A stretch of DNA of 64,000 nucleotides from Achromobacter spanius. GTDB lineage: Bacteria; Pseudomonadota; Gammaproteobacteria; Burkholderiales; Burkholderiaceae_B. The notes beneath the pieces were generated by a model. The model ran no database searches. It was not told the DNA's origin and saw only the letters and a list, made by a program, of their open reading frames with translations. Each line of letters starts with the position of its first letter. The stretch's first letter is position 1. Position numbers and translations under genes: made by a program. The DNA is taken from positions 1 to 64,000 of the forward strand of contig NZ_CP025030.1 of NCBI RefSeq assembly GCF_002812705.1, written 5' to 3'. This document shows, in pieces, positions 1-17,882 of the stretch.

Positions 1-713
1 CCACGCCCATGCCGCGTGCGACCAAGGTGCAGATCGTCTCGTGCCCGCTGACACGGGCGCTGATGCGCCGCGCCACGCCCATCGCCTGGGCGGTTTGCTC
101 GAACACGCTGCTGATGCCGTTGTCACGGTTCAGTTCGATCTGCTCGAAAGGCAGCAGTTGCGCATAGTCCAGCGTCTCGCGCTGGCCAGCACATGCTGGC
201 CAGGCACCACGGCGGCCAGCTCGCAATGCCCGTACGGGAACACCTGCAAGCCGTCATGCCCGAAGTCCGACCCCGCCGCCACATCCGCCTGCCCTTCCAG
301 CACGGCGCGAAAGGCGGCTTGCGTCGTGTCTTCCTGCAGCAGGATGTCGATCTCGGGGTGCGCCCGGCGAAACGATTGAATCCGCGCGGGCAAGTCGCCG
401 GACAACGCCGCCACGCTGACCGCCAGGCGCACGCGCCCCGCACGCCCGTCGCAAAGCCCGCCATCTCGCGGTGCATGTGTTCCAGGTCCTGCAACAGCCG
501 CCGCACGTGCGTGGCCAGCGCGTTGCCGGCCGGCGTGGCCTGCACGCCCTTGACGCCGCGCTCCAGCAGCGGCACGCCAAACGCTTCCTCCATTTCCGAC
601 ATCCGCTTGCTGACTGCCGACGGCACGATGTTCTCGCGCGCGGCGGCCCGCGCCAGGCTGCCTTCTTCCAGGGCGGATAGGAACAACCGCAGCGATATGG
701 GATCAATGTCGCG
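1..713 (-). pseudogene. LysR-family transcriptional regulator, frameshifted and cut by the window edge
   Basis: The minus strand encodes a LysR-type regulator. A winged helix-turn-helix (ISLRLFLSALEEGSLARAAA, then PSAVSKRMSEMEEAFGVPLLERG) reads in one frame up to about 440. The effector-binding domain (RLAVSVAALSGDLPARIQSF, HPEIDILLQEDT) continues in a second frame to about 180. The next part (ETLDYAQLLPFEQIELNRDN, ARRISARVSGHETICTLVAR) reads in a third frame off the left edge. Each junction is explained by one missing base in a GC-rich run. No in-frame ATG or GTG is visible upstream of the HTH, so the start is unresolved. Either a decayed gene or sequencing indels would explain this; the intact domain sequence on both sides of each break favours errors or very recent decay. 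Confidence 0.75.
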
Positions 714-906
714 GACGTGGCTTGATGGGCCGGAGGCGCTTGGCGGACTGGATGCGCTTGATGGGCTTGGGCAGGCTTCATGGCCGAGAGTGTCCCGCGT
801 TGTTCGTGGGCGCGGTGACCCGGGTTTTCCCTAGCGCAAGACTTGAGTATCATCCGCGCTCCGGTCGTGGTTGTACGGCCCCGGCATCACCAGGATTCCC
901 GTTTCC

Positions 907-2015
907 ATGCAATGCCCCGCTGCAATTGGCAAAACCCCGCCTCCAATACGCAATGCTTCAGTTGCCAGGCGCCATTGCCCGTTTCTGCCGCGCCTGCGCC
1001 CGGCAAACAAAAAAAACAAACCATCAAAAAGCCCCCGCGTCCAAGGCCCCTGCCCAGTCCGCGCATCACAATGCGCAGGTGTTTCCCAGCATCTGGGCCC
1101 GGCTGGGCGCAAGCGCCATCGACGCCATCGTCATGGCGGTGGGGATGATCGTCTTGATCATGGCCGCCCAACTGACCTACGAAGGCCTGACGGGCAACAA
1201 ACCGCCCTTCTTGATCGCCTTTGCCGCCGGCTTGATCGGCTGGTTCCTGCCGGCTTTCATGGACGCTTGGGGTAACGGTTCGCCGGGCAAGCGTGTCTTG
1301 AAGCAGCGGGTGGTCAATCGCAAGGGCCAGGCCCCGGGCCTGCTTCGCTCGCTATGGCGCCATACCATGAAGTACACGGTGAACATGCTGCTGCCCGGCC
1401 TGTTCCACCATTTGCAGCAGATGATCTTCGGCGAACGCGCCATGCACAACGCCTTGGCGGGCACGCACGTGGTCACGCGCGATGCGAACCCGCGCGCCAT
1501 GCAGGCCGCCGTCGCCCGGGCCCCCTCTGTCACCGGCGCGGGCAAGTTCCTGTTTACGGTGTTCGGCATCCTGGCGCTGGTCGTGGTGGGCATCGTCATT
1601 GGCATCAACGCCACCGGCGATAGCAAACAGCGACAACCCGCTGCATGCCGACATCAACCGCCTGGACCTGGTCTCCGATCCCGTGCGCCGGCTCGCGGAA
1701 AACCACTATCGGCGCACGCAGAAATTTCCGTCCACGCTGGACGAGCTGGGCATCAGCGCGCAGTCGCTGGAAAGCAGCGGCTTTTCCAAGGTGGAGATGA
1801 ATCCGGTCAACGGCGTCTTGCGCTTCACGATTGCCGGCACGCCCAGCACCGACGGCAGCCCCAGCCTGGCGGGCAAGCATCTGGTCTACGTGCCGGAACT
1901 GCGCGCCGAACGCAAAGGCGGCGGCGTGCGGCGGTGGGAATGCGGCAGCGACGACATCCCCGCCAGCGACCGCACCTACTCTTGCCGCCACGACGCCAGC
2001 GCCTTCGCGCGCTAA
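907..2015 (+). pseudogene. Zinc-ribbon / RDD-family membrane protein with several frameshifts
   Basis: From the ATG at 907 the peptide would be MQCPRCNWQNPASNTQCFSC, a CxxC...CxxC zinc ribbon, if one C were restored to the C-run near 917. A second frame change lies near 1010-1030 in an A-rich stretch, and a third near 1620. The middle frame carries an RDD domain with membrane segments (SAIDAIVMAVGMIVLIMAAQ, PFLIAFAAGLIGWFLPAF) and GSPGKRVLKQRVVNRKGQAP, plus a last helix FLFTVFGILALVVVGIVIGI. The C-terminal frame (LHADINRLDLVSDPVRRLAE to FAR, stop at 2013-2015) looks like a pilin-like periplasmic tail. RDD proteins are integral membrane proteins of mostly unknown function. All pieces lie in order, so this is one gene broken by three or more single-base indels. 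Confidence 0.7.
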
Positions 2016-2106
2016 GCCGCCCGGCCTTGGTCACAAGCTGCCCTGTAAAACGACAGAACCCCGCGGCAGAACCCCCGCGACATAACCCCACGACGGAACC
2101 CTACGC

Positions 2107-3639
2107 ATGTCCGCCTTGATCGAAGCCATCCAACGCGCCGAAGACGGCAGCGACCTGCCAAAAATGCTGTCGCTATGCGAACAGGCCGTGCGCGAACAGC
2201 CTGGTTCAGCCACCGTCTGGGGCTTGCGCGCCCGCTGCCACGCCCAACGCAAGGCCTACGCCCAGCGTGACGCCGACGTGGCCCGCGCCCTGGCGCTGGA
2301 CCCGCAATGCAGCGACGCCATTGCCGTGCAGGCCGTGGTGCGCTACGACGAAGGCGACGAACAGGAAGCCTGGCGCGCCGTGCGCGACGCCCGCCAACGC
2401 GCCCCCTCCCACTACGGCTTGCTGATGGCTGAAGCCTACCTGCTGATCAACGATCGCCGCCTGGATGACGCCATCGCCAGTTGGACGCGAGCCTCTCAGA
2501 TCCGCTCGGCCGCCGCGGCGCCCCATTGCTATATCGGCTCAAACCTGCACAACGCCGGCCGCTACGCGGACGCCCTGCCCTACCACCAGCGCGCCGTCGC
2601 CCTGGCGCCCAACAATGGCGGCTTTCTGTACGACGCCGGCAACAATTACCGCCGCTTGGGCGATTTGAACAACGCCATCGCCATGTTCGACCGCGCCCGC
2701 GCCATCCTGGGCGAAGAGAACGCCATCCAGCACAACCGCGCGTCCTGCCTGCAAGCCATGGGCCGCGACGCCGACGCGGTGGAAGAATGGACCAGCCTGC
2801 TGCGACGCGAACCCGACTGGGACTGGCCGCTGGAAGGCAAGGCGCGCTCGCTACACCGGCTGGGCGCGGACGAAGCCGTGCCCCTGTGGCGCCATCTGGA
2901 CGCGCTTTCCGACAACGGCTGGGAAGGCCGCAAGGAACAAGCCCGCGAATACGTGCGCGGCGGCAAACCCGAACTGGCCGAAGAGGCGCTGCTAGGCCTG
3001 GATCCGCTTGATAGCGGCGACGCCCAGTTGCTGTTCGTGGCGGGTAACGCCCAGCGCGACCAGCGCAACTGGGAAGCCGCGCTGGCGTACTACCTGAAAG
3101 GCTATGAACTTGCGCCCGGCGATGACTTCCTGCCCGGCAACGCCGCCGACATGCTGAACTACCTGGAACGCCACGACGAAGCGCTACCGCTGGCGGAAGT
3201 GGCGATTTCACTGGACCCCGACTGGCTGAAATGGCGCCGCGTGCGCATTGAAGCGCTGACGCACCTGGACCGCGCCGACGAGGCCGTGGCCTATGCCGAC
3301 ACCACCCTGGAACGCTGGTCAGACAGCGGCCCCCTGCATGCCGAACGCATCAACGCACTGATCGCCGCCAAGCGCCATGACGAAGGGCTGGCGGCCTGCG
3401 ACCGCCTGCTTGCGCTGGACCCGGACTATCGCAGTTGGGCGCTGTTTGCGCGTGGCAGGATCTTCGGCCAGATGAAGCGCCACGCCGAATCGGCCGTGGC
3501 CTACCGCCAGGCTTCCGCGTCTTACCAGCAAAACGGCAAACCCTATTTTCAAGAGCTGTCGATGAAGAACGCGCTGGAAGCGGAAGCGGCCGCCTCCAAA
3601 CCCGCCGGATTTCTTGGCCGGCTGTTCGGCCGCAAGTAG
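2107..3639 (+). CDS. Tetratricopeptide-repeat protein
   Basis: A 510-residue soluble protein without a signal peptide, built almost entirely of TPR-type helix pairs, for example AGRYADALPYHQRAVALAPN (about 155-175), LGDLNNAIAMFDRARAIL, NWEAALAYYLKGYELAPGDD and RHDEALPLAEVAISLDPDW. It ends in a basic tail FLGRLFGRK. TPR proteins act as scaffolds for protein-protein contacts; nothing in the sequence points to a partner or reaction. It follows the frameshifted RDD gene by about 90 bp on the same strand and is itself intact, which contrasts with its broken neighbours. The tRNA-Leu gene begins 66 bp after its stop. Confidence 0.8.
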   Translation: MSALIEAIQRAEDGSDLPKMLSLCEQAVREQPGSATVWGLRARCHAQRKAYAQRDADVARALALDPQCSDAIAVQAVVRYDEGDEQEAWRAVRDARQRAPSHYGLLMAEAYLLINDRRLDDAIASWTRASQIRSAAAAPHCYIGSNLHNAGRYADALPYHQRAVALAPNNGGFLYDAGNNYRRLGDLNNAIAMFDRARAILGEENAIQHNRASCLQAMGRDADAVEEWTSLLRREPDWDWPLEGKARSLHRLGADEAVPLWRHLDALSDNGWEGRKEQAREYVRGGKPELAEEALLGLDPLDSGDAQLLFVAGNAQRDQRNWEAALAYYLKGYELAPGDDFLPGNAADMLNYLERHDEALPLAEVAISLDPDWLKWRRVRIEALTHLDRADEAVAYADTTLERWSDSGPLHAERINALIAAKRHDEGLAACDRLLALDPDYRSWALFARGRIFGQMKRHAESAVAYRQASASYQQNGKPYFQELSMKNALEAEAAASKPAGFLGRLFGRK

Positions 3640-3705
3640 CCGGGGGGCGCGCAGCGGGATGTTATAGTCACGCCCGCTGCCGACCCTTGCAAAGGGCCGC
3701 GCATC

Positions 3706-4016
3706 GCCCGAGTGGTGAAATTGGTAGACACAAGGGACTTAAAAAATTTGAGCCCTTTGGGGGAAACTCCAAAGGTGTAGCCCGTCAAACTCGGCGAACG
3801 CCCTGGACCTGTTCCGAGCCAACGCCGAGCCAAGCCCCGATTGAAAAGCCGGGGAAGGTGTAGAGAGCAGACGGCGGGCACCTACGGCCGCAAGGCTATG
3901 GTGAAGGCGTGCTCCAGACCACGAACAGCGCACCCGCGCTGGCGGCGAAAGCCGAAGTGGTAAGAAAATCCCTCGGCCGCAAGGCCGTACCGGTTCGATT
4001 CCGGTCTCGGGCACCA
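3706..4016 (+). tRNA. tRNA-Leu(UAA), interrupted by a group I intron
   Basis: The 5' exon (3706-3740) starts GCCCGAG, and the 3' exon (3965-4016) ends CTCGGGC-A-CCA, giving a perfect 7-bp acceptor stem with an encoded CCA. Joined exons form the anticodon arm AGGGA-CUUAAAA-UCCCU with anticodon UAA, a long variable arm (CGGCCGCAAGGCCG) and a T arm ACCGG-TTCGATT-CCGGT. A 224-nt intron splits the anticodon between U34 and A35, the position used in cyanobacterial and plastid tRNA-Leu(UAA). A possible extended -10 (TGTTATAGT, 3660-3668) lies 37 bp upstream without a good -35. Mature length would be 87 nt. Confidence 0.93.
3741..3964 (+). ncRNA. Group I intron (self-splicing, probable IC3 type) in tRNA-Leu(UAA)
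   Basis: A 224-nt insert with no ORF carries the group I core. P1: exon CUU pairs with intron GAG (3750-3752), placing a U.G wobble at the 5' splice site, and exon GGG pairs with CCC (3753-3755). P2 is the hairpin CCTTTGG...CCAAAGG (about 3754-3776). P4 pairs CUCGGCG with CGCCGAG. P6 is CCCCG...CGGGG. P3 pairs CCGUC with GACGG. P7 pairs GAGCA (3865-3869) with TGCTC (3910-3914). P8 is CACC...GGTG, and P9 stems are AGCGC/GCGCT and GGC...GCC. The intron ends in G (3964), as the class requires. Its size is between the Azoarcus tRNA-Ile intron and cyanobacterial tRNA-Leu introns. Splicing is inferred, not shown. Confidence 0.88.
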
Positions 4017-4074
4017 CCTGCTGCGTCCGCAGCTTGCACAGGCCAGGCGATTGCGCTTGGCCGGACGACCACAC

Positions 4075-4689
4075 TTGAACGCTCCTTCCGCCCCTGCCCC
4101 CTTCATCGTCCTGGACGCCTGCGTCCTGATGTCCGGCATTCTGCGCCGGCTGCTGTTGCGCCTGGCCGAGGCCGATGTGTTCATACCCGTCTGGACCGAA
4201 CGCATCGGCGAGGAATGGCGGCGCAACGCGGCGCGAATCTGGGATATTCCGCCCGAGGTATTGGCCGATTTCTGGCCGAGATGAACGCGAGCTTTCCCCA
4301 GGCCAACGAGGTCGACACGCAGGTGTACGAAGCGTCGTTGCGCTATAGCGACCCGAAGGACTTCCACGTGATTGCGGCCGGGTTGGCGCGGCGTGCGCGC
4401 TGTGGCTTGCAGCAGCCGCCCCGTGGTGCAGGTGCTGACCTGGAACCTGAAGGATTTCAACCGTTCGGAATTGCGCCGCCAGGGCCTGGACGTCTACAAC
4501 CCGGACCGCATGCTGGTGCAATGGTGGCAGGCCGACCCGGCGCGCATGCGCGAGGCCGTGGCCCAGATTCCCGCCGACTACATCGCCTTGGACCGCGAGC
4601 CGCTGCCGCTGTCCACGATCTTGCATCGTGAGCGCCTGTATGGTTTGAAAAGCCTGGTGGCGCGCGAGATGGTTGAAAAAGCGGGCTGA
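4075..4689 (+). pseudogene. PIN-domain protein, frameshifted
   Basis: Starting from a TTG at 4075 the peptide MNAPSAPAPFIVLDACVLMS has the first PIN-fold aspartate (LDACVL), followed by VFIPVWTERIGEEWRRNAAR. The frame breaks near 4265, where restoring one C gives ADFLAEMNASFPQANEVD, then SDPKDFHVIAAGLARRARC, and breaks again near 4405 into RPVVQVLTWNLKDFNRSELR to the stop at 4687-4689. The SDPKDFHVIAA and TWNLKDF segments match the acidic C-terminal PIN motifs (metal-dependent RNase fold, often a VapC-like toxin). No antitoxin gene is adjacent. With two frameshifts no functional product is expected unless these are sequencing errors. Confidence 0.65.
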
Positions 4690-4773
4690 ACCACGGCCTG
4701 AAACGCGGGCAAAAAAAGCGGGCCTGGGCAGCTTGCGCCGCACCAGGCCCGGAGCCAATCTTGTTCCCCGAGG

Positions 4774-6280
4774 TCAGTCGACCTCGACGAACGTTTCCTC
4801 GCGCTTCTTGCGCAGTGCCGGCAGCATCACCAGCACCAGCAGGATGGCAGCCAGGGCAAGCAGCGTCGCCGACAGCGGGCGCGTGACGAACGTGCTGAAT
4901 TCACCGCGCGACAGCAATAGCGCCCGACGGAAGTTCTCTTCCATCATCGGACCCAGCACCAGGCCCAGCAACAGCGGCGCGCCCTCGCAACCCAACTTGC
5001 TCCAGACATACCCGATGACGCCAAAGATGGCGAACATGAAGATGTCGAACACGTTGTAGTTCAGCGAATACACCCCGATCGTGCAGAACACGAGAATGGC
5101 CGGGAACAGCATGCCGGTAGGGTACGCGCAGCAATTTGACCCAGATGCCGATCAGGGGCAGGTTCAGGATCACCAGCATCAGGTTGCCGATCCACATGGA
5201 GGCGATCAGGCCCCAGAAAAGTTCGGGATGGCTGGTCATCACTTGCGGGCCGGGCTGGATGTTGTGGATGGTCATTGCCCCCACCATCAGCGCCATCACC
5301 GCGTTGCCGGGAATACCCAGCGTCAACAAGGGAATGAACGAGGTTTGTGCGCCAGCGTTGTTGGCCGACTCCGGCCCCGCCAGACCGGCGGGGTGGCCCT
5401 TGCCGAAACGTTCGGGCTCTTTCGACAGCTTTTTCTCAAGCGTGTACGAGGCAAACGCCGACAACACCGAACCGCCGCCCGGCAAGATACCCAGCGCCGA
5501 ACCCAGGGCGGTGCCCCGCACGATGGCGGGCGCCGCTTCGCGGAATTCCTGGCGGCTGGGGTACAGCGAGCCCACCTTGTCGGTGATTTCGACGCGGTTC
5601 TCTTTCTGCTCCAGGTTGGCCATGATTTCCGACAGGCCGAAAACGCCCATCGCCACAATCGCGAAATCGATACCGTCCTGCAATTCCGGAATGCTGAAGT
5701 CGTAACGGGCGACGCCGGAATTGACGTCGGTGCCCACCATGCCCAGCAGCAAGCCCAGCAAGATCATGCAGATGGCCTTGGGCAGCGAGCCCGACGCGAG
5801 CACGACCGCGCCGATCAGCCCCAGCGCCATCAGAGAAAAGTACTCCGCCGGGCCGAACGCGAACGCCACTTCCGCCAGAGGCGGCGCAAACGCCGCGATC
5901 AGGACGGTGGCAACGCTACCCGCGAAGAATGATCCGATGGCGGCAAGGGACAGCGCGGCGCCCGCCCTGCCGTTACGCGCCATCTGGTGGCCGTCCAGCA
6001 CCGTCACCACCGCGGACGTCTCACCCGGCAAATTCACCAGAATGGCCGTGGTCGAACCGCCGTACTGGGTGCCGTAGTAGATGCCGGCCAGCATGATCAG
6101 GCCGGCCGTGGGCGGCAACACATACGTGATGGGAAGCAGCATGGCAATGGTGGGAACAGGCCCCAAGCCCGGCAAGACGCCGACCAGCGTGCCCAGCAGG
6201 CAACCCAGGAATGCATAGCTGAGGTTTTCCGGCGTGAACGCCACGGAGAAACCCAGCATCAGGTTTTGTAGAAGTTCCAT
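4774..6280 (-). pseudogene. tctA: Tripartite tricarboxylate transporter TctA, large membrane subunit, one frameshift
   Basis: The N-terminal part (MELLQNLMLGFSVAFTPENL, GTLVGVLPGLGPVPTIAMLL, GTQYGGSTTAILVNLPGETS, LGILPGGGSVLSAFASYTLE, SANNAGAQTSFIPLLTLGIP) is typical of the 12-helix TctA channel subunit. At about 5115 the frame shifts: one extra base in TACCGGCATG changes YRMLFPAI into YRHAVPGH. The rest (MLFPAILVFCTIGVYSLNYN to EETFVEVD) reads in the next frame to a stop at 4774. Total length is about 501 residues, the usual TctA size. TctA and TctB form the membrane part of a sodium- or proton-driven carboxylate importer that needs a periplasmic TctC/Bug protein. Only 9 bp separate it from tctB, so they are co-transcribed. 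Confidence 0.85.
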
Positions 6281-6289
6281 TGTTGTCTC

Positions 6290-6748
6290 CTAGTTGCCGA
6301 ATGCGCTGGGCCACAGCGGGAAGATCAAGCCCAGGCCGCGTATGAACGCCAGGTAGGAGAACGCCACGAGGAACAGGCCGTTGGCAACGGCGACTTTCCA
6401 ATTGAATTCATGACTGGCAAGGCTGCTGATGAGAACCAGCAGGAATACCGAGATGTAGAGCCCCAGGTACCGCAGCGCGAAACCGTAGAACACCACGGAT
6501 CCGACCACCAGGAAGAGGATGCGGAAATCGTAGCGGCTGATCGTGGTGGTATCGGCCTTCTTGGCCAGTGCGCTGATCAGCACGACCGCGCCCATCAGCG
6601 CCAGCACGATGCCCAGCCAGAACGGGAAATATCCCGGTCCCATGCGGGCCGCGCTTCCCATGGAATATTCGGTGGCCTGTACGGAAAAGGCCCCCCCTAA
6701 AGCAATAAACATGGCTCCGGACCAAAAGTCCTGTCTGTTTCTTATCAA
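6290..6748 (-). CDS. tctB: Tripartite tricarboxylate transporter TctB, small membrane subunit
   Basis: A 152-residue protein with four hydrophobic segments (SGAMFIALGGAFSVQATEYS, FPFWLGIVLALMGAVVLISA, LFLVVGSVVFYGFALRYLGL, VAVANGLFLVAFSYLAFIRG) and the TctB signature MGPGYFP. It begins with TTG at 6748, preceded by a GGGAGA ribosome-binding site; no better start is present. It heads the tctBA pair, but the usual tctC (binding protein) is missing upstream, where 448 bp of non-coding DNA precede ilvA's terminator. The partner is probably one of the Bug proteins encoded elsewhere. Confidence 0.85.
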   Translation of the reverse strand: MIRNRQDFWSGAMFIALGGAFSVQATEYSMGSAARMGPGYFPFWLGIVLALMGAVVLISALAKKADTTTISRYDFRILFLVVGSVVFYGFALRYLGLYISVFLLVLISSLASHEFNWKVAVANGLFLVAFSYLAFIRGLGLIFPLWPSAFGN

Positions 6749-7125
6749 GCTGCAGTCTCCCTAGTCTGACGCGCCGGAACATCGCTGGAAAAAGTGGCGC
6801 GTCCTTATCTCTACGCCCCCCACCGCTGGCAAGCCGTTGGCGAAAAAGCGAAGTTGCAGATACTAAATCGCATGACGACATATCGAATATCCGTATGAAC
6901 CATGACTTTTTTGGGGATATCCCTAGTCCAAATATTGGACAGATTTTTCTCAACTCGCTTCAATTACGGCTTCCGAAATGCCTTCAATTCGCTTTCAAGC
7001 CGCTTGCCGTGGGGATGTCAGCCATCTTAAAAAAGTTCAACGGGTGGCAAAAAAAATCTGAAGCCTGATCCGCGCCGAGCAACTTTTTTTTCAACCATTC
7101 CCCTCCGAACCGCGCAGACGCACGT
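6749..7125. promoter_or_regulatory. Non-coding upstream region of tctBA with palindromic operator candidates
   Basis: No gene is seen here. The stretch is more AT-rich than its surroundings. It contains a perfect palindrome GTCCAAATATTGGAC (6926-6940), a second palindrome GGGATATCCC (6914-6923) next to it, and ATATCGAATATCCGTAT just upstream. These lie about 170-190 bp from the tctB start and are plausible operators for the transporter; the regulator is unknown. Confidence 0.4.
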
Positions 7126-7152
7126 AAAAACGCCCGCAAAGTGCGGGCGTTT
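7126..7152 (-). terminator. Intrinsic terminator after ilvA
   Basis: Read on the minus strand: a perfect 9-10 bp stem AAACGCCCGC...GCGGGCGTTT with a short loop, followed by a T run (A run 7126-7130 on plus). It lies 45 bp past the ilvA stop. Confidence 0.85.
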
Positions 7153-7196
7153 GAGGTCGATGCGGTCGGGAACGATGCGGCCTTGAGCCGCCGCGG

Positions 7197-8414
7197 TCAG
7201 TGATCGTGGTTGCTGGCCGCGAAGCCCGCGGCGTTCAGCACATCGATCACTTCAAGAATGTGTTCCGGCCCGCGCGTTTGCAGCACGAAGTCCACTTCAA
7301 CGTTGCGCACCGGCAGCGACGTGAAGGCGCGCTGGTGATGCACTTCGGTGATGTTGGCCTGGGCGTCGGCGATGAGCTTGGTGGCATGCGCCAGGGCGCC
7401 GGGCAGGTCGCGCAGGTCCACGCGGATGCGGGCCAGGCGGCCGGCGCGCACCATGCCGCGTTCGATCAGTTCGCCCAGCATCAGCGGGTCGATATTGCCG
7501 CCGGTCAGCACCAGGCCGATACGCTTGCCCTTGAAGCGGTCGCTGCCAGCTTCCTGCGCGCGCAGCAGCGCGGCCAACCCGGCGGCGCCCGCGCCTTCGA
7601 CCACGGTCTTCTCAATTTCCAGCAGCACGACGATGGCGTGCTCGATGTCGCTTTCGCTGACCAGTTCAATGTGGTCGACCAGCTTGGCAACGATCGGCTG
7701 CGTCAGCGCGCCGGGCGACTTCACCGCAATGCCTTCCGCGATGGTGTATTGCCCCTGCGGCATGGCCACGCCCTTGACGGCCGCGTACATGGACGGAAAG
7801 CGTTCCGTCTGCACGCCCACGATCTCGATGCCAGGCTTCAAGGCCTTGGCCGCGGTGGCCATCCCGGAAATCAAGCCGCCCCCGCCAATCGCGATCACCA
7901 ACATGTCCAACTGCGGCTGGTCTTCCAGCATTTCCAGCGCCACGGTGCCCTGCCCCGAAATGACGGCTTCGTCATCGTAGGGATGGATCATGATCAGGCC
8001 GCGTGCCTGGGCAAGTTCGTAGCCGTGCGCCTTGGCGTCGTCAAAGGTATCACCGGCCAGCACCACTTCGGCGCCGAAGCGGCGGGTGTTGGCCACCTTG
8101 ACCGTGGGTGTGAAGCGCGGCATCACGATCACGGCGGGCACGCCCATGCGCTGGGCATGGTAGGCCACGCCCTGCGCGTGATTGCCGGCAGACACCGCGA
8201 TCACGCCCTTGGCCCGCTCGTCGGCCGTCAGGGTCAACATGCGGTTCAGGGCGCCGCGTTCCTTGAAGGACGCCGTGAATTGCAGGTTCTCGAACTTCAG
8301 CCAGATCTCGGCGCCGAAGATGTCGGACAGCGTGCGCGACAGGGTAAAGGGGGTCTTCAGCACCTGGCCGCGCAGGTTGTCGCGGGCGGTCTGGATGGAA
8401 GCGATATCGATCAC
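7197..8414 (-). CDS. ilvA: Threonine ammonia-lyase (threonine dehydratase), PLP-dependent, with ACT domain
   Basis: Converts L-threonine to 2-oxobutanoate and ammonia, the first committed step of isoleucine synthesis. The 405-residue protein has a fold-II PLP domain: Schiff-base lysine K51 in TASFKERGA, the SAGNHAQGVA substrate loop and the glycine-rich phosphate loop GGGGLISG. One C-terminal ACT-like domain (about 330-405, RIRVDLRDLPGALAHATKLI) suggests allosteric control. It has one regulatory domain, unlike the roughly 510-residue E. coli IlvA with two. The start is GTG at 8412-8414. It is transcribed alone, ends in a strong terminator, and lies away from the ilvBHC operon at 13.6-17 kb. 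Confidence 0.92.
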   Translation of the reverse strand: MIDIASIQTARDNLRGQVLKTPFTLSRTLSDIFGAEIWLKFENLQFTASFKERGALNRMLTLTADERAKGVIAVSAGNHAQGVAYHAQRMGVPAVIVMPRFTPTVKVANTRRFGAEVVLAGDTFDDAKAHGYELAQARGLIMIHPYDDEAVISGQGTVALEMLEDQPQLDMLVIAIGGGGLISGMATAAKALKPGIEIVGVQTERFPSMYAAVKGVAMPQGQYTIAEGIAVKSPGALTQPIVAKLVDHIELVSESDIEHAIVVLLEIEKTVVEGAGAAGLAALLRAQEAGSDRFKGKRIGLVLTGGNIDPLMLGELIERGMVRAGRLARIRVDLRDLPGALAHATKLIADAQANITEVHHQRAFTSLPVRNVEVDFVLQTRGPEHILEVIDVLNAAGFAASNHDH

Positions 8415-8429
8415 GATGGGAAGATCCTG

Positions 8430-9155
8430 TTAACGCACAGGCAGAAAATTGAACAGCAGGAGGCCCTGCGCATAGTTGATGCCGATGCGGCGCGAATTTT
8501 CGCCAAGCAGGTTGGCGATCAGGTCCAGCCGGCCGATGATGGCGCCGAACTCGCGCTCGAAGCTCAGGTTCGTGGCGGTGGGAGACATTTCATTGGCCAG
8601 CAAAAGCAGTTCACCCTGATTGTTGCGGCGCGACGCCAGCAGCCAGGCGGCTGCCTCGACATTCCGTGCGGCATTGTAGACCCGCTGACCATCCAGCGCG
8701 TCGGTGGCGTACAGGCGGGTCTTGCCGTTGTGCGCCGCGATGATGGTGTCGGCCATGCCATAGATAAAGGCGCCGACGCGGTCGCCGGTGTAGTTCGGGT
8801 CCAGCGACACGGCCAGGATCTGGATGTCTCGCAGGCCGGCCAGATCGCTGGGCGGCACGCGGACTTCGATGGCGTGCTTGACGCGGTTAACGGCCGCCTT
8901 GTGATCCGCCGCGCCCGTCTTGCGCCATTCACGGGGGTTGCGGCGGTAGAGCTTGTCCAGCAGCGAATACAGGCTGTCCAGGTTGTCGCGCACTTCAAGC
9001 GTGACCGTGCGGTTGAAATCGGTCTGGCCGAACTGGTCGGCGGACATGGCTTCGCCTTTGGGGCCGCGTTGGCCCGGCCCGGGGCTGCTCATGCAGCCGG
9101 TCAGCAGCGCGGCAAGCAGCGCTGCGGCGGTAGCGCCCGCCGCCCAGCCCGTCAT
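8430..9155 (-). CDS. Conserved lipoprotein of unknown function
   Basis: About 241 residues when started at the ATG at 9153-9155. That start gives a lipoprotein signal peptide (MTGWAAGATAAALLAALLTG followed by the lipobox cysteine); the longer upstream reading would run through the pnp terminator and is rejected. The mature part has no recognised enzyme motif: an acidic/basic N-terminal helix region (TVTLEVRDNLDSLYSLLDKL), then ILAVSLDPNYTGDRVGAFIY and YNAARNVEAAAWLLASRRNN. It is likely anchored in the outer or inner membrane facing the periplasm. It ends 16 bp before the ilvA start, so the two may be co-transcribed. Function not recognised. Confidence 0.75.
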   Translation of the reverse strand: MTGWAAGATAAALLAALLTGCMSSPGPGQRGPKGEAMSADQFGQTDFNRTVTLEVRDNLDSLYSLLDKLYRRNPREWRKTGAADHKAAVNRVKHAIEVRVPPSDLAGLRDIQILAVSLDPNYTGDRVGAFIYGMADTIIAAHNGKTRLYATDALDGQRVYNAARNVEAAAWLLASRRNNQGELLLLANEMSPTATNLSFEREFGAIIGRLDLIANLLGENSRRIGINYAQGLLLFNFLPVR

Positions 9156-9219
9156 GCTTGGATCATCCGTTTTTCCCTCCGTCTGGCGCAAGACTTTACA
9201 GGAAAGGCGGCCTGGCCCC

Positions 9220-9247
9220 AAAAAAAACGGCGCCTTGCGGCGCCGTT
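9220..9247 (-). terminator. Intrinsic terminator after pnp
   Basis: On the minus strand the hairpin AACGGCGCC...GGCGCCGTT is followed by eight Ts (A run 9220-9227 on plus), 24 bp past the pnp stop. Confidence 0.9.
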
Positions 9248-9270
9248 CTTCGGTCAATCAGGCAGCAAGC

Positions 9271-11433
9271 TTATTCAGCTTGCGGTTCCGATTGGGGGGC
9301 AGCGTCGGGAGCGGCAGCGGGTTGCTGCGCTTCGATGCCACCGATTGCCTTGATGGACAGGCGCAGGCGGCCCTTGTCGTCGGCCTCGATGACCTTGACG
9401 CGGACTTGCTGGCCGACCTTCAGCACATCGTTGATGTTCGCGATGCGGTAGTTGGCGATTTCCGAGATGTGCAGCAGGCCGTCGCGGCCCGGCAGCACTT
9501 GCACGATGGCGCCGAAGTCCAGCAGACGCAGGACCGAACCTTCGTACATCTGGCCCACTTCGACATCGGCCGTCAGTTCGACGATGCGGCGCTGGGCTTC
9601 TTTGGCCTGCGCTTCGTCGACGCTGGCGATCACGATCGTGCCGTCGTCGGAGATGTCGATCTGCGTGCCGGTTTCTTCGGTCAGCGCGCGGATGGTGGCG
9701 CCGCCCTTGCCGATCACGTCGCGGATCTTCTCGGGGTTGATCTTGATGGTCAGCATGCGCGGGGCGAAAGCCGAGAGCTCGCCACGCGAACCGTCCAGCG
9801 CTTCCTTCATCTTGGTCAGGATGTGCAGGCGACCTTCGCGGGCTTGCGCCAGCGCCACTTGCATGATTTCCTTGGTGATGCCCTGGATCTTGATGTCCAT
9901 CTGCAGTGCGGTGACGCCGTTTTCGGTGCCCGCGACCTTGAAGTCCATGTCGCCCAGGTGATCTTCGTCACCCAGAATGTCGGTCAGCACGGCGAACTTG
10001 CCGCCGTCCAGGATCAGGCCCATGGCCACACCGGCCACGTGATCCTTGACCGGCACGCCGGCGTCCATCATGGCCAGCGAGCCGCCGCAGACCGAAGCCA
10101 TCGACGACGAGCCGTTGGACTCGGTGATTTCCGACACGATACGGATCGTGTACTGGAAGTCTTCCGGCGCCGGCAGCAGCGGGATCAGCGAGCGCTTGGC
10201 CAGACGGCCGTGGCCGATTTCGCGGCGCTTGGGCACACCGATGCGGCCCGTTTCGCCGGTGGCGAACGGAGGCATGTTGTAGTGCATCATGAAGCGGTCG
10301 CGGTATTCACCCATGAGCGCGTCAATGATCTGCTCGTCTTGCTTGGTGCCCAGCGTGGCAACGACCAGCGCTTGCGTTTCACCACGGGTGAACAGCGCGC
10401 TGCCGTGTGCGCGGGGCAGCACGCCCAGACGCACGCTGATGGGGCGAACGGTGCGGGTGTCGCGACCGTCGATACGCGGTTCGCCGTTCAGGATCTGACC
10501 GCGAACGATGGCCGATTCCAGCGAGAACATGATGTTGTCGACGGTCACGGCATCAGGCAGCGCCTCGCCCTTTTCAGCGGCGGCGGCAGCCAGCTTGGCC
10601 GACACGTCGGCCGACACTTCGCGCAGCTTGGCGGTGCGGGCCTGCTTGTCGCGGATCTGGTAGGCGGCGTTCAGGCCTTCCTGGGCAGCCGCGGTCACGG
10701 CGGCGATCAGGGCTTCGTCCTTGGCCGGAGCTTGCCAGTCCCATTCGGGCTTGCCAGCGTCCTTGACCAATTCGTGAATGGTGTTGATGACGGCCTGCAT
10801 CTGCTCGTGGCCGTAAACCACACCGCCCAGCATGATTTCTTCGGAAAGCTGTTGGGCTTCCGATTCCACCATCAGCACGGCGTTTTCCGTACCGGCAACC
10901 ACCAGGTCCAGCTTGGACGACTTCAGTTGCGAGGCGGTCGGGTTCAGGACGTATTGACCGTCGATGTAGCCCACGCGCGCGGCGCCGATCGGGCCGTTGA
11001 ACGGGATGCCCGAAATGGCCAGCGCGGCCGAGGCGCCGATCATGGCGGCCATGTCGGGATCAATCTCGGGATTGACCGACAGCGTGTGGATGACGACCTG
11101 GACTTCGTTGTAGAAGTCTTCCGGGAACAGCGGACGCAGCGGACGATCGATCAGGCGCGAGGTCAGCGTTTCCTTTTCGGAGGGCTTGCCTTCACGCTTG
11201 AAGAACCCACCCGGGATACGGCCGGCGGCGTAGGTCTTCTCGATGTAGTCGACGGTCAGCGGGAAAAACGTCTGACCCGGCTTGGCCTTCTTGGAAGCCA
11301 CAACGGTGGCCAGGACAACGGTGTCCTCGATCGACACCACAACGGCGCCGGAGGCCTGGCGAGCGATCTCGCCAGTTTCCAGGACGACCGTGTGCTGGCC
11401 GTACTGGAACGATTTTGTCACTTTGTTGAACAT
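9271..11433 (-). CDS. pnp: Polyribonucleotide nucleotidyltransferase (PNPase)
   Basis: Phosphorolytic 3'-5' exoribonuclease of mRNA decay, a trimeric component of the degradosome. The 720-residue protein has two RNase PH domains (1-145 and about 315-545, with [20 protein letters not shown] and [19 protein letters not shown]), an all-alpha linker, a KH domain ([20 protein letters not shown], about 555-615) and an S1 domain ([20 protein letters not shown], about 620-690). The tail is rich in Ala/Pro/Gln. It follows rpsO in the conserved rpsO-pnp order, and the 94-bp gap holds a large hairpin likely to be processed. ATG at 11431-11433 follows a GGAATA element. Confidence 0.97.
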
Positions 11434-11457
11434 GACGATTATTCCTTACAAATGAAA

Positions 11458-11498
11458 AACCGTGGCCGCTGCGACAATACGTCGCACCGACCACGGTT
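11458..11498 (-). promoter_or_regulatory. rpsO-pnp intergenic hairpin (terminator/processing stem)
   Basis: On the minus strand AACCGTGG (plus 11491-11498) pairs with CCACGGTT (11458-11465), and an inner stem GTGCGAC/GTCGCA is capped by a small loop. A short T run follows. In E. coli the same interval holds a stem cut by RNase III and used for PNPase autoregulation; here it could be that, a partial rpsO terminator, or both. Confidence 0.6.
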
Positions 11499-11527
11499 AT
11501 TGCGTCATGGGGAGCCAGCCCCGTCGA

Positions 11528-11797
11528 TCACTTGCGCAGACCGAGTTTTTCGATCAGAGCGCGGTACGAATCGGGATTGCGGCCCTTGAGATAGTCGAGC
11601 AGCTTGCGGCGACGGCTGACCATACGCAGCAGACCGCGGCGCGAGTGATGGTCCTTCATGTGTTCTTTGAAGTGACCGGTCAGTTCGTTGATACGGGCGG
11701 TGAGCAGAGCCACCTGAACTTCGGGGGAGCCGGTATCGCCTTGAGCGCGTTGGAATTGCGCAACGATATCGGATTTCTTGATGTCAGCTACAGACAT
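11528..11797 (-). CDS. rpsO: 30S ribosomal protein S15
   Basis: 89 residues, the standard size, with the S15 signature [20 protein letters not shown] and [20 protein letters not shown]. Primary binder of the central domain of 16S rRNA in the small subunit. It starts [12 protein letters not shown] at 11795-11797 with upstream AAGAGG. It is followed by pnp on the same strand. Confidence 0.97.
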
Positions 11798-12020
11798 TGA
11801 TGACCTCTTCGGACATGCGACAGGGCCGAGGTGCCCTGACGTGGTTTGGAAAAAATTTGCGTGAATTCCGGCGATAAGCGTTTTTGCTTTCTCACTGCTG
11901 CTTCAATAGCTGCCAGAATGGCCCACCACACACGGATTGCTCTGGGTTGGGGGTCACTCTGCAGCCGGACTGCCGGCGCAAAGCATCTTGCAAAATCAAT
12001 ACACTTGATAAAGCTCGGCG
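11798..12020 (-). promoter_or_regulatory. rpsO 5' leader
   Basis: About 220 bp between the proposed rpsO -10 box (12021-12026) and the rpsO start contain no gene. The length and position fit a leader in which S15 represses its own translation, as known in several bacteria with unrelated leader structures. No conserved S15-binding fold could be assigned by eye. Confidence 0.35.
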
Positions 12021-12026
12021 ATTATA
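12021..12026 (-). promoter_or_regulatory. -10 box of the rpsO-pnp promoter
   Basis: The minus strand reads AGCTATAATCG, a perfect TATAAT. No good TTGACA is present 16-18 bp upstream (GGGGTA at that place), so this rests on the -10 alone. The divergent lipoprotein gene starts 89 bp away. Confidence 0.45.
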
Positions 12027-12114
12027 GCTGATTCGCTAGAATTACCCCACAGGTGGTTTTGGGGGGCCGGTACCGGCCTGCAGCGCCCGAGCGGCGCCCT
12101 TGAGGAGCAAACAC

Positions 12115-12633
12115 ATGTCTAAATATTTCAGACCCGCGCGTACGGTCCTGGCTTCCCTGGCGATCGCCAGCCTGGCGGCTTGCGCCAACATGACTCAGAT
12201 CCCGCCCGGCACTTCCTACGGCGACGTGCTTACCCAATTCGGCCAGCCCAACTTCGAATGCCCCCAAGCCGGCGGGGGGCGCCGCGTCATCTGGACGCAA
12301 CAGCCCATGGGCCAATACGCCTGGGGCACCAACGTCGGCACCGACGGCCGCGTGGGCCAGGTGCTGCCCCTGCTGACGGACGCGCACTTCAAAGTGCTGG
12401 AAACCGGCGACTGGGGACCGGACCGCGTGCGCTGCGAATTCGGGCCGCCCGCCCAAATCGATGTCACGGGCCTGGGCGAAAAGCGCGAAGTCGTGTGGTC
12501 GTACCGGTACAAGGAAAATGGCGTGTGGAATTCACTAATGTACGTCTACATGAGCCGCGACGGCAGCAAGGTGACGCACTTCCACCCTGGCCCCGACCCC
12601 ATGTACGACGACGACAGATTCATGTGGCGCTGA
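12115..12633 (+). CDS. Small outer-membrane-type lipoprotein (OmlA/BamE-like)
   Basis: 172 residues from the ATG at 12115, with GAGGAG just upstream. Signal peptide MSKYFRPARTVLASLAIASL ends in a lipobox LAAC. The mature start IPPGTSYGDVLTQFGQPNFE resembles the SmpA/OmlA/BamE fold, where a G-x-x-x-x-x-V-xx-x-G-x-P motif opens the domain. Two further such segments (LLTDAHFKVLETGDWGPDRV, CEFGPPAQIDVTGLGEKREV) suggest a repeated domain. BamE proteins serve the outer-membrane beta-barrel assembly machine, but this is not the canonical short BamE, so the role is open. It is a single-gene unit ended by a strong terminator. Confidence 0.78.
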   Translation: MSKYFRPARTVLASLAIASLAACANMTQIPPGTSYGDVLTQFGQPNFECPQAGGGRRVIWTQQPMGQYAWGTNVGTDGRVGQVLPLLTDAHFKVLETGDWGPDRVRCEFGPPAQIDVTGLGEKREVVWSYRYKENGVWNSLMYVYMSRDGSKVTHFHPGPDPMYDDDRFMWR

Positions 12634-12652
12634 ACCCGCCATCAACAAAAAA

Positions 12653-12682
12653 CCCGCCAATAATCGCTTGGCGGGTTTTTTT
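12653..12682 (+). terminator. Intrinsic terminator after the OmlA-like gene
   Basis: Stem CCCGCCAA / TTGGCGGG with a 7-nt loop, followed by seven Ts (12676-12682). It could also work for pssA on the other strand because As precede it. Confidence 0.9.
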
Positions 12683-12719
12683 ATGGGCTGCGCTTTGAAA
12701 AAAAGCAGCGATCAGCGGA

Positions 12720-13493
12720 TCAGGACGAGTGGCCGCGGCGCTCTTGCGTCAGGCGGCGCGCCTTGTTCCAGCGCCAGCCCCACATGACCCAACCCGACAA
12801 GCCATACAGCACGAACAGCCCGAACAGCACGACCGGGGGGTCGCTGGACACGAACACGAATACGGCCACCACCAGCAAGATGCCCCAGAACGGCACGCTA
12901 CGGCCCAGCGCAAAGCTCTTGCCGCTGAAGAACGGGGCGTTGGACACCATGGTGATGCCCGCGTACATGGTCAGCGTGAACGCCACCCAAGCCATCAAGC
13001 TGTCATGGATGGGAAGCTTATTGTCCACCGCCAGCCAGACAAAACCCGCCACCAGCGCGGCGGCGGCCGGGCTGGGCAGGCCTTGGAAATAACGTTTGTC
13101 GACGACGGCGATATTGGTATTGAACCGCGCCAGCCGCAACGCGGCACCTGCCACATAGACGAAGGCGGCCAGCCAACCCCAGCGGCCCAAATCGTTCAAG
13201 ATCCATTCGTACATGACCAGCGCGGGCGCCACGCCGAACGACGTCATGTCGGACAAAGAGTCATATTGCTCGCCGAATGCCGACTGCGTGTTGGTCAGGC
13301 GAGCCACCCGGCCATCCATGCCATCCAGCACCATGGCCACGAAAATGGCGATGGCGGCAACTTCGAAGCGATCATTCATTGCCTGCACCACGGCATAGAA
13401 CCCCGCGAACAGCGCAGCGGTGGTGAATGCGTTGGGCAGCAAGTAAATGCTTCGGTGGCGGTTCTCGGAATCGCGCATGGAAAAATTGGGCAT
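12720..13493 (-). CDS. pssA: CDP-diacylglycerol-serine O-phosphatidyltransferase
   Basis: Makes phosphatidylserine, the precursor of phosphatidylethanolamine, from CDP-diacylglycerol and serine in the inner membrane. The 257-residue protein has the CDP-alcohol phosphatidyltransferase signature: DGMDGRVAR, then G and two spaced Asp in FGEQYDSLSD. It has about eight hydrophobic segments (LPNAFTTAALFAGFYAVVQA, WGWLAAFVYVAGAALRLARF, FWGILLVVAVFVFVSSDPPV). This is the integral-membrane type, not the peripheral PssA of E. coli. It lies 166 bp downstream of ilvC beyond a terminator, so it is partly uncoupled from the ilv operon. Confidence 0.93.
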   Translation of the reverse strand: MPNFSMRDSENRHRSIYLLPNAFTTAALFAGFYAVVQAMNDRFEVAAIAIFVAMVLDGMDGRVARLTNTQSAFGEQYDSLSDMTSFGVAPALVMYEWILNDLGRWGWLAAFVYVAGAALRLARFNTNIAVVDKRYFQGLPSPAAAALVAGFVWLAVDNKLPIHDSLMAWVAFTLTMYAGITMVSNAPFFSGKSFALGRSVPFWGILLVVAVFVFVSSDPPVVLFGLFVLYGLSGWVMWGWRWNKARRLTQERRGHSS

Positions 13494-13585
13494 AGTCTCA
13501 ATAACTTACAACGGACTGTGAAAGGTTAACTCATATGGCCCCGCTTGCGGGACAGAGCAAGTGCCATGCCTGAGGAAAAGGCAAT

Positions 13586-13617
13586 AAAAAACGGCATGCC
13601 CTTTGGAGGCATGCCGT
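13586..13617 (-). terminator. Intrinsic terminator after ilvC
   Basis: On the minus strand ACGGCATGCC pairs with GGCATGCCGT around a 7-nt loop and is followed by TTTTTATT. It lies 43 bp past the ilvC stop. Confidence 0.88.
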
Positions 13618-13659
13618 CTTGTCGGACGGGGCGCGGGGCCAGCCCGCGCCGGGCGTCGA

Positions 13660-14751
<1,092 letters not shown>

Positions 14752-15243
14752 TCAAATCTTCAAAATCCGTTCACCGCGTCCGATGCCGGACACGCCGGTG
14801 CGTACGGTTTCAAGGATGGCACTGCGGTCCAGGGCCTCCAGGAAGGCCTGTACTTTTTCCTGCACCCCGGTCAATTCGATGGTGTAGGACTTGTCGGTCA
14901 CGTCGATGATGCGGCCACGGAAAATATCCGCCATGCGCTTCATCTCTTCGCGTTCCTTGCCCACGGCGCGCACCTTCACGAGCATCAGCTCGCGCTCGAT
15001 GTGGGCGCCTTCGGTCAGGTCGACCACTTTAACGACATCCACCAGGCGGTTCAGGTGCTTGGTGATCTGTTCGATGACTTCATCGGAACCCGTCGTCACG
15101 ATGGTCATGCGCGACAGCGTGGAATCCTCGGTGGGCGCCACGGTCAGGGTTTCAATGTTGTAGCCCCGCGCGGAAAACAGACCCACCACGCGCGACAGCG
15201 CGCCGGGTTCGTTTTCGAGGAGGACGGAAATCACGTGCTTCAT
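14752..15243 (-). CDS. ilvH: Acetolactate synthase small (regulatory) subunit
   Basis: 163 residues from the ATG at 15241-15243, which has a textbook AAGGAGG site; the longer reading upstream would overlap ilvB and is not supported. An N-terminal ACT domain MKHVISVLLENEPGALSRVV binds valine and gives feedback inhibition; the C-terminal half (GAHIERELMLVKVRAVGKER, YTIELTGVQEKVQAFLEALD) stimulates the catalytic subunit. It lies 10 bp after ilvB, consistent with translational coupling. Confidence 0.96.
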   Translation of the reverse strand: MKHVISVLLENEPGALSRVVGLFSARGYNIETLTVAPTEDSTLSRMTIVTTGSDEVIEQITKHLNRLVDVVKVVDLTEGAHIERELMLVKVRAVGKEREEMKRMADIFRGRIIDVTDKSYTIELTGVQEKVQAFLEALDRSAILETVRTGVSGIGRGERILKI

Positions 15244-15253
15244 GGTGGCCTCC

Positions 15254-16969: not shown

Positions 16970-17415
16970 GTTTATTTCCTTTCAGTACCGGCCCTGCAAC
17001 CCTGACTGCTGCTCGCCCGGATACGGCGGCAACGGAACCCATACCGGCTACGACAACATGATCCGGCGCTTAGCGGCTCACGGAGCCACGCCACCCGGAC
17101 ACCCTGCCGACCCGGCACACGCTCGACAGAACGCAGTGCAAACGCCCCTTGGGGACGCTGGAGGTCGAAATGGAAGCTTTGGCAACACACGCTTGTGGCG
17201 CGGCCAACAGCAAGTATCACTGCGGCAGGATGGCTGGGGAGGTGACCCGTACCATCCGCCTCAACGCGCCGGTATCGGATAGGCAGACCGGCGCAAGAGG
17301 TGGAATTTACCGCGTTGCGTCAAAGGTAGCAAATCGACGTGAAACGACCGTTGCGCGCGCGATGCAGCCGGTCTGACAGGGAAAGTCCTGTAACCATCTG
17401 ACCCCAGAATGTATG
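16970..17415. other. Non-coding leader region of ilvBHC
   Basis: No convincing gene in about 445 bp. On the minus strand a 12-codon peptide MVRVTSPAILPQ (17217-17255) contains Val, Val, Ile and Leu codons after a GAGG sequence; it could be an attenuation leader but has no codon run and no clear terminator/antiterminator pair was found by eye. Confidence 0.3.
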
Positions 17416-17827
17416 CCCCCACGCTTCGCGCCCTCCGGGCGCTCTCTGCCCCCGAGGGGGCGCTTTCCCCTTGGGGCGGCCCGGCGGGGAAAGGGAGCCC
17501 CCACGCTTCGCACCCTCCGGGCGCTCACTGCCCCCCGAGGGGGCGCTTTCCCCTTGGGGCGGCCCGGCGGGGAAAGGAGCCCCCACGCTTCGCACCCTCC
17601 GGGCGCTCACTGCCCCCCGAGGGGGCGCTTTCCCCTTGGGGCGGCCCGGCGGGGAAAGGGAGCCCCCACGCTTCGCGCCCTCCGGGCGCTCTCTGCCCCC
17701 CGAGGGGGCGCTTTCCCCTTGGGGCGGCCCGGCGGGGAAAGGAGCCCCCACGCTTCGCGCCCTCCGGGCGCTCTCTGCCCCCCGAGGGGGCGCTTTCCCC
17801 TTGGGGCGGCCCGGCGGGGAAAGGGCC
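17416..17827. repeat. Tandem array, five copies of an about 82-bp GC-rich unit
   Basis: Units begin CCCCCACGCTTCGC at 17416, 17498, 17580, 17663 and 17745 (spacing 82, 82, 83, 82). Each holds GCTTCGCGCCCTCCGGGCGC, CCCGAGGGGG and TTTCCCCTTGGGGCGGCCCG, then GGGGAAAG. These sub-palindromes would fold into strong hairpins. Copies differ by a few bases (CGCGCC/CGCACC, CTCTCTG/CTCACTG, GGGA/GGA). Open frames through it are compositional artefacts. It separates the divergent ilvB and FUSC genes. Confidence 0.9.
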
Positions 17828-17882
17828 CTAAGCCTGGAGGGCATCTATATACTTGCCGCATCGCAAGATTAGGCCTCGTCCC

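Follow-up and report, generated by a model that had tools for sequence, protein, structure and literature searches.

The question raised by this locus is whether a tRNA-Leu(UAA) gene interrupted in its anticodon loop still yields a working tRNA in Achromobacter spanius, and how the insert came to lie there. The window, that is, the whole stretch of 64 kb analyzed here, was searched with ARAGORN, which called a tRNA-Leu(taa) at 3706-4016 with a 224-nt intron (3741-3964) after linear position 35 when introns were allowed, and no tRNA at 3706-4016 when they were not. Twenty shuffles of 5 kb of the region gave no call (introns of 150-400 nt allowed), and the exons, GCCCGAG...GGGACUU (5') and AAAAUCCC...CUCGGGCACCA (3'), were called as an ordinary tRNA-Leu(taa) when joined in silico. 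The insertion site is between nt 34 and 35, as in tRNA-Leu(UAA) introns of subgroup IC3. Here, nt 34/35 refers to standard tRNA numbering, and half-tRNAs are given in linear positions of the mature gene; linear 33 is C32, and thus the 7-nt anticodon loop is linear 33-39. A previous sequence-only reading of this DNA had proposed a split between U34 and A35 by 224 nt, and ARAGORN gave the same boundaries. We are highly confident that the window contains a working tRNA-Leu(UAA) gene with a small group I ribozyme at nt 34/35, in which UUA decoding is splicing-dependent and which is inherited vertically in the genus; its structure, boundaries, single copy and distribution are directly established. 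The parts of the gene, all on the forward strand, are as follows.

3706-3740, forward: 5' exon of tRNA-Leu(UAA), nt 1 to U34 (ARAGORN with introns, and sequence)
3741-3964, forward: group I intron, 224 nt, last base G3964 (ARAGORN, covariation and R1 match)
3965-4016, forward: 3' exon of tRNA-Leu(UAA), A35 to CCA (ARAGORN; joined exons give tRNA-Leu(taa))
3738-3752, forward: P1, with C3738-G3752, U3739-A3751 and U3740.G3750 at the 5' splice site (read from sequence)
3754-3775, forward: P2 hairpin with GAAA loop, both-side changes at 9 of 9 pairs (hand-drawn structure, alignment count)
3780-3879, forward: P3, 3780-3786 with 3873-3879, crossing P7, 96.9% of cells paired (alignment count)
3791-3828, forward: P4 (3791-3796/3823-3828), P5 (3800-3801/3818-3819) and P5a (3805-3807/3813-3815) (alignment count)
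3829-3859, forward: P6 (3829-3831/3857-3859) and P6a (3835-3839/3850-3854) (alignment count)
3865-3914, forward: P7, 3865-3869 (GAGCA) with 3910-3914 (UGCUC), 100% of cells paired (alignment count)
3880-3902, forward: P8, 3880-3882/3900-3902 plus 3887-3889/3894-3896 (alignment count)
3919-3960, forward: P9 (3919-3922/3957-3960), P9a (3927-3940) and P9b (3944-3953) (alignment count)

Two group I hallmarks, U3740.G3750 in P1 and G3964 as the last intron base, were read in the window itself. A secondary structure of 58 pairs (P2-P9b) was written by hand and then counted over an alignment of 32 introns: that of the window, 16 more from Leu(UAA), ten from Leu(CAA) and one from Ser(UGA) of its family, and four distant ones, the introns from beyond the family including L012 (Rhizobium), L021 (Bradyrhizobium) and L003 (Clostridia). 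Over the 58 pairs, 94.3% of cells were paired, and changes on both sides occurred at 38 pairs (183 such cells). The covariation value was 0.304 versus 0.116 in shuffles, with none of 500 shuffles reaching the observed value, and pairing fell to 28.9-43.1% when the partners were slid. The core helices P3, P4, P6, P7 and P8, with the crossing of P3 and P7, were upheld by this covariation. P7 was paired in all 32 introns, its two middle pairs being G-C and C-G in the window clade versus C-G and U-A in five introns; the G-C pair at columns 138/213, which we take to be the guanosine site, was also present in all 32. Energy folding of the single sequence, a method that cannot hold P3 and P7 together, was modestly better than for shuffles (z -2.32 and -2.50). 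By structure and boundaries, the insert is confirmed as a group I intron. The sequence-only reading had listed the U.G in P1, the P3, P4 and P6-P9 pairings and the terminal G, and had described the intron as intact-looking: P1 and the terminal G are read in the sequence, P3-P9 are borne out by the 32 introns, and the intact appearance is supported. Most Leu(UAA) rows combine exon CTT with intron GAG in P1, with some exceptions, and 224 nt leave no room for a homing endonuclease gene. The intron shares with the cyanobacterial tRNA-Leu(UAA) introns the same tRNA, the same position, the small size and the same core helices. It differs from known tRNA introns in its P7 (GAGCA/UGCUC), in belonging to a clade missed by the Rfam model RF00028 and in being general in a whole genus. 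Its P9 region is presumably longer than that of the Azoarcus intron.

The sequence-only reading had expected a significant Rfam group I match ending at 3964, which was not obtained: RF00028 matched neither the window nor the 521 bases surrounding the gene (E<=10), and nothing in the whole genome. At E<=0.1, this model scored 62.4 bits for L012 and, below its own cut-off of 50, 45.0 bits for L021 and 39.2 bits for L003, and missed all seven betaproteobacterial loci given to it as well as the Vallotia locus L022. Since RF00028 finds aligned relatives but misses the betaproteobacterial ones, we took its miss in the window as a limit of the model; Rfam recognition is a detection criterion, not a defining feature of group I introns. 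The lack of a covariance-model hit, which had been named as evidence against the intron, is thus true to the letter for RF00028, but its cause was put in the model. A covariance model built from the 32-intron alignment (R1) picked up the intron family readily and matched the window at 3740-3964 with 252 bits, the window being among its own training sequences. A pattern search of genome contigs gave 19 loci, mainly intronless tRNA-Leu genes, together with two introns (L003 and L012).

Second, we asked whether the genome has another tRNA able to read UUA. The 55 other tRNA matches were all typed, the leucine ones being TAG, CAA, CAG (three) and GAG, and a pattern search of the genome for an intronless tRNA-Leu(UAA) yielded only Leu(CAA) and the split gene; an intronless copy elsewhere in the genome was ruled out by this typing and search. 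To our knowledge, the UUA codon is read by the UAA anticodon only. As no other tRNA-Leu(UAA) turned up in the genome, the intron has to be removed for UUA to be decoded; the second intact gene that the sequence-only reading had named as possible counter-evidence was not found there. The same pattern search in 40 genomes (up to 2 mismatches), of which 20 carry a window-type Leu(UAA) intron, found an intact intronless Leu(UAA) in none of these 20, the lone match, in G029, being a cut half. A candidate second functional copy at 6411585 was rejected, as it lies within a 17.9-kb overlap of the contig ends: window positions 1-17914 correspond to G000:C1:6407873-6425783 (L084, L109) with 0 substitutions and 19 gap openings, and neither the tRNA nor the intron differs between the two ends. 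The contig end therefore repeats its first 17.9 kb, as expected for a circular chromosome left untrimmed. Other genes have indel errors at the window end of the contig; close to the window start, the LysR, RDD and TctA genes are broken or shorter than their longer counterparts at the other end, and thus look affected by sequencing errors. Downstream of the tRNA (window about 4055-4693; L084:6928-7566) is a PIN-domain gene, just below the Pfam cut-off, a homologue of which was present near the intron-bearing tRNA gene in 4 of 41 loci searched; a role for it was considered and set aside.

These data bear on whether the locus is a dead insertion, with an intron that no longer splices and a tRNA pseudogene. 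Such a possibility, with which the negative Rfam result would agree, appears extremely remote, given that this is the only UUA-reading tRNA found, that the joined exons are normal and that compensatory changes keep the core pairs. By analogy with well-studied group I introns, the precursor of the working gene would be transcribed whole and its intron would fold; external guanosine would then attack after U34, and the freed U34 would attack after G3964, so that the exons are joined into a normal tRNA-Leu(UAA).

Third, we analyzed the distribution of the intron. R1 matched all 43 genomes of the genus, 108 of the 268 family genomes, and 41 of 250 and 27 of 299 genomes in draws from the order and the phylum, respectively (these draws include the genome itself and some relatives, and searches of more than 40 genomes were run under stricter filters). 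ARAGORN typed 34 of the 43 matches in the genus, all as Leu(UAA), and nine were untyped. The earlier view that the intron is unusual or sporadic in this lineage does not agree with these numbers, nor with its presence in several tRNAs of the family. The gene and tRNA-Ser(UGA) were on one contig in 41 of the 43 genomes, 2.8-34 kb apart (median 10.3 kb), and on different contigs in G173 and G178. Based on this linkage, the intron-bearing gene looks vertically inherited within the genus. The variable stretch between tRNA-Ser(UGA) and tRNA-Leu(UAA) (G000:C1:6404174 to 6411585; 41 genomes) is a likely hot spot of gene gain.

Beyond the genus, we compared the intron with an rpoB tree of 57 family genomes (of an initial 60, two had no match and one had a broken gene, and these were dropped). 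Window-type Leu(UAA) introns occurred in 20 of the 57 genomes and required 10 changes on this tree, versus a mean of 16.7 and a minimum of 10 in 1000 shuffles. Distances between Leu(UAA) introns were weakly correlated with rpoB distances (Spearman 0.34; 3 of 999 permutations as high), and the Leu(CAA) introns did not clearly track rpoB (Spearman 0.14; 108 of 999 permutations as high). The same-contig linkage and the rpoB comparison together indicate vertical inheritance in the genus, with gains and losses across the family. In an intron tree of 97 rows, in which several deep branches are weakly supported and the Azoarcus and Anabaena references are provisional, introns were mostly grouped by tRNA and not by genome. 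Arg(CCU), Leu(CAA) (with the untyped L178 inside) and Ser(UGA) introns formed one clade each, and Leu(UAA) introns formed several, those of g43 being a lineage separate from the window clade in the same family. The Ser(UGA) clade was apart from the Clostridia Leu(UAA) intron (L003), which lies on a long branch. AU tests covered 61 of the 97 rows, leaving out the g43 Leu(UAA), Arg, Ile, Thr and untyped introns, L003 and both references. They rejected a sister relationship between a genome's own Leu(UAA) and Leu(CAA) introns (four genomes; p 3e-5), gave similar values for the two placements of Leu(CAA), within the Leu(UAA) introns or as their sister group (p 0.505 vs 0.646), and did not give significance to a transfer from g1 to G050 (L065) suggested by the tree (p 0.273). 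Two loci from other orders of the class, L232 (G512) and L233 (G658), were close to the window clade, with 238 and 223 bits with R1; L233 is Leu(UAA), and L232 reads by eye as Leu(CAA).

It is improbable that the intron descended vertically from an ancestor common with cyanobacteria, followed by many losses. The shared site with cyanobacterial and plastid introns, which is well established (PMC4033280), is consistent with such descent, as are the clustering of presence on the species tree and the correlation with rpoB. Against it are the patchy distribution, the separate Leu(UAA) lineages in one family, the close matches in other orders and the replacement of whole genes in two relatives, G029 and G016. 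The question of vertical inheritance versus transfer, which the sequence-only reading had raised, thus receives a divided answer: inheritance looks vertical in the genus, distribution is patchy in the family, and in these two genomes the whole gene arrived on an element.

The native intronless tRNA-Leu(UAA) of G029 lies in two pieces, with positions 1-41 at 30707-30747 and positions 33-85 at 75524-75576 of one contig. G016 has a related element in the same arrangement, the integrase being 92% identical to that of G029. The halves are about 45 kb apart in G029 and about 51 kb in G016, and a complete intron-bearing tRNA-Leu(UAA) is located 160-162 bp inside the left end of the element (162 bp in G029). 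In the G029 element, an integrase gene adjoins the right half, and further genes encode a coupling protein, TrbE, TrbI, TrbL, ParA and ParB domains, and a DUF3363 protein with a relaxase match just below the cut-off; by gene content, it is a putative integrative and conjugative element. Cargo of these elements (L333-L335 in G029, L336-L339 in G016) includes, by eye, a kdp-like gene run, and a DUF1016/YhcG nuclease in G029. The only sequence common to both junctions in G029 and G016 is CTTAAAATC, the anticodon loop plus two bases. In each genome, the native tRNA is split with this short core and not rebuilt, the element brings its own intact tRNA of that isotype, and the pattern search gave no intact intronless tRNA-Leu(UAA). 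The native halves of G016 have acceptor GCGTCCA on both sides and are near-identical to the intronless genes of G091 and G035; unlike them, the element-borne tRNA has acceptor GCCCGAG. Both cases are whole-gene replacement by an element. Because the acceptor stems differ in G016, homing of the intron only was ruled out as the sole mode of spread. In G029 and G016, the host may need the element's tRNA, and the integrase may act at this core. Among 30 integrase loci, four adjoin a tRNA-Leu 3' half (that of G016 was seen whole), and all four have an intron-bearing tRNA-Leu of the same isotype on the same contig, although most elements came to light through inspection of the surroundings of intron-bearing genes, which biases any statement that every tRNA-Leu-splitting element has an intron.

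With these elements in view, we tentatively consider the intron as a disguise, by which the element's tRNA-Leu copy would be no attachment site as DNA and a normal tRNA as RNA, the window gene being a domesticated copy. Elements attacking the 7-nt anticodon loop of tRNA-Leu would carry their own copy of that tRNA; an intronless replacement would offer the element's integrase a second attachment site, and an intron within the core would remove this site from the DNA and leave the RNA unchanged. The intron interrupts exactly the stretch common to the element junctions. Such masking would account for introns in the integrase core, for the spread of whole tRNA genes and for the tolerance of C-G at the 5' splice site in a sister clade. 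Positions, half-tRNAs, cores and gene content were observed directly; in this reading, integrases would still act at this core, the intron would block them and the window gene would derive from an element.

More specifically, an element may have split the ancestral tRNA-Leu(UAA) of the window lineage and later been lost, its replacement tRNA becoming domesticated and the intron being kept as an interruption of the core. We regard this history as doubtful. It has a living counterpart in G029 and G016, where both junctions are present, and in G455 (another family), in which a left half is followed downstream by an R1 match whose 5' exon reads Leu(UAA), with no ARAGORN call. Among the genes compared, all 21 intron-bearing ones had acceptor GCCCGAG (19) or GCCCGGG (2), and 7 of 22 intronless ones had GCCCGAG; in G128, the intron-bearing gene has, at a distance of 1.1 kb, a piece of a diverged integrase (78% over 161 residues). 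On the other hand, there was no half-tRNA relic in the 64-kb window or in 30 tRNA-Ser(UGA) neighbourhoods of the genus, half-tRNAs at other Leu(UAA) loci were confined to 3 of 55, all outside the genus, and the linkage to tRNA-Ser(UGA) and the seven intronless genes with the same acceptor type also speak against it. Moreover, the window intron begins with AAAA, so that its 5' junction still reads CTTAAAA, 7 of the 9 bases of the integration core.

A similar relationship between introns and elements was observed for tRNA-Leu(CAA), for which arrangements were read in 14 of 20 genomes (G138, G059, G198, G207, G070 and G050 gave no clear arrangement). Half-tRNAs occurred in six genomes. Left halves in G053, G102, G035 and G237 cover positions 1-39, ending in CTCAAAA, with an intron-bearing tRNA-Leu(CAA) 187-196 bp further on. 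Right halves start at CTCAAAA beside an integrase in G091 and G200, and in G053 and G035 by position only; both junctions were read in sequence in no single genome. The pattern search gave no intact intronless Leu(CAA) in these six genomes. In a second type, found in eight genomes (G103, G202, G105, G209, G122, G002, G208 and G013), an intact intronless tRNA-Leu(CAA) is followed just 3' by a gene for a 355-aa integrase (G013 has a truncated one), with an inverted, intron-bearing Leu(CAA) 2-17 kb inside. At the far ends seen for this type (L328, L332 and L326), the repeat starts in or just before the anticodon loop. Since the second type keeps the native gene intact, a replacement is not needed, which argues against a simple rescue role. 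G030, G045 and G199 (with a broken copy in the last) also have the 355-aa integrase next to an intronless Leu(CAA), and R1 lists no Leu(CAA) intron in any of them; these three genomes are counter-evidence to a strict link between integrase and intron. Elements of this second type in L325-L332 contain TrbJ- and TrbL-like genes (L327-L330), relaxase-like genes (L327) and a type II methyltransferase (L320/L330), and PADLOC named one type II methyltransferase when run on nine element genes. In G091 (L319), two intron-bearing tRNA-Leu(CAA) copies are 5 kb apart in direct orientation, and the far-end repeat of one element type seems to be the left end of another, i.e., the elements appear to be in tandem.

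At the 5' splice site of the Leu(CAA) introns, C34 faces G in place of the U.G pair in 24 of 24 rows (23 distinct loci, as L205 repeats L078), with the intron GAG retained. The loci are as follows.

Leu(CAA) introns with C-G: L071-L080, L143, L144, L146-L148, L150, L151, L153, L156-L158, L185, L205 and L212

The core of these introns is nevertheless conserved. As tRNA-Leu(UAA) can also read UUG, poor splicing of Leu(CAA) may be tolerated. This clade makes the U.G rule testable in nature.

Several known systems resemble parts of these findings. Group I introns have been recorded in alpha- and betaproteobacterial tRNAs (PMC4033280), and also in tRNA-Ile2 of Acidovorax and Burkholderia (PMC8450103). 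The mycobacteriophages with tRNA-dependent lysogeny (Guerrero-Bustamante and Hatfull 2024, PMC10865867) are like the G029 and G016 elements in having a tyrosine integrase at the element end and a split host tRNA. Unlike these phages, the G029 and G016 elements are putatively conjugative and their replacement tRNA is interrupted within the core by a group I intron, a term absent from that paper; no element of the mycobacteriophage type was seen in the window itself. The group I introns of tmRNA (Nawrocki, Petrov and Williams 2025, PMC11915505) also lie in the loop of a tRNA-like gene that is a favourite integration site. Their rule, as given there, is a U at -1 that pairs with G, together with a G at the intron end; the exceptions (15 of 883) have C at -1 paired only with A, in contrast to the C facing G in Leu(CAA) introns. 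In IStrons (PMC4227781), a group I intron likewise renders a DNA element harmless to the host, but intron and transposon form one chimera, whereas the element of the relatives carries an intron-containing tRNA gene. Taken by itself, the window locus is unremarkable within the tRNA-Leu(UAA) intron family and falls in a clade that the Rfam model misses; novelty rests on the variant in relatives, for which no description was found in the literature searched. No paper on the combination of this intron with a tRNA-splitting element was found in a search that left most subscription-journal papers outside.

If the intron masks an integrase site, a bacterial tRNA intron would have a function beyond neutral persistence. 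If true, this would also provide a mechanism for patchy spread, in which the moving unit is the tRNA gene on an element and not the intron alone, would extend tRNA-dependent integration from mycobacteriophages to conjugative elements, and would make the host dependent on the element's ribozyme for a codon.

Finally, introns were observed in other tRNAs and on plasmids. In the family, the same ribozyme family occurs in Leu(UAA), Leu(CAA), Ser(UGA), Thr(UGU), Arg(CCU) and Ile(CAU), where Ile(CAU) is our reading of matches that ARAGORN labels Met (otherwise for L194, L200 and L201), the Thr site was read by eye, and four matches are untyped (L145, L178, L198 and L199). Introns at nt 34/35 were seen in tRNA-Ser(UGA) (L082, L162-L169) and, by eye, in tRNA-Thr(UGU) (L161), and L255 is by eye a tRNA-Arg(UCU), which ARAGORN calls Ser(gct). 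By eye, tRNA-Ile(CAU) has two intron sites, nt 33/34 and 36/37, in different genomes, the loci compared being L191, L224, L225 and L253 versus L189, L227 and L254. A sequence about 70% like the window gene was present in 1284 plasmid records, 955 of them from Escherichia, Klebsiella or Salmonella. Two such plasmid regions (L020 and L023) are near aac(3)-IId and read by eye as tRNA-Leu(UAA) with an intron, with different boundaries in ARAGORN; an intron-bearing copy on a plasmid may mark the origin of that DNA segment. Intron-bearing tRNA-Leu(UAA) genes were also found near trbI-trbG on a Bradyrhizobium plasmid (L021) and near rpsU and thiC on a plasmid of the symbiont Candidatus Vallotia tarda (L022).
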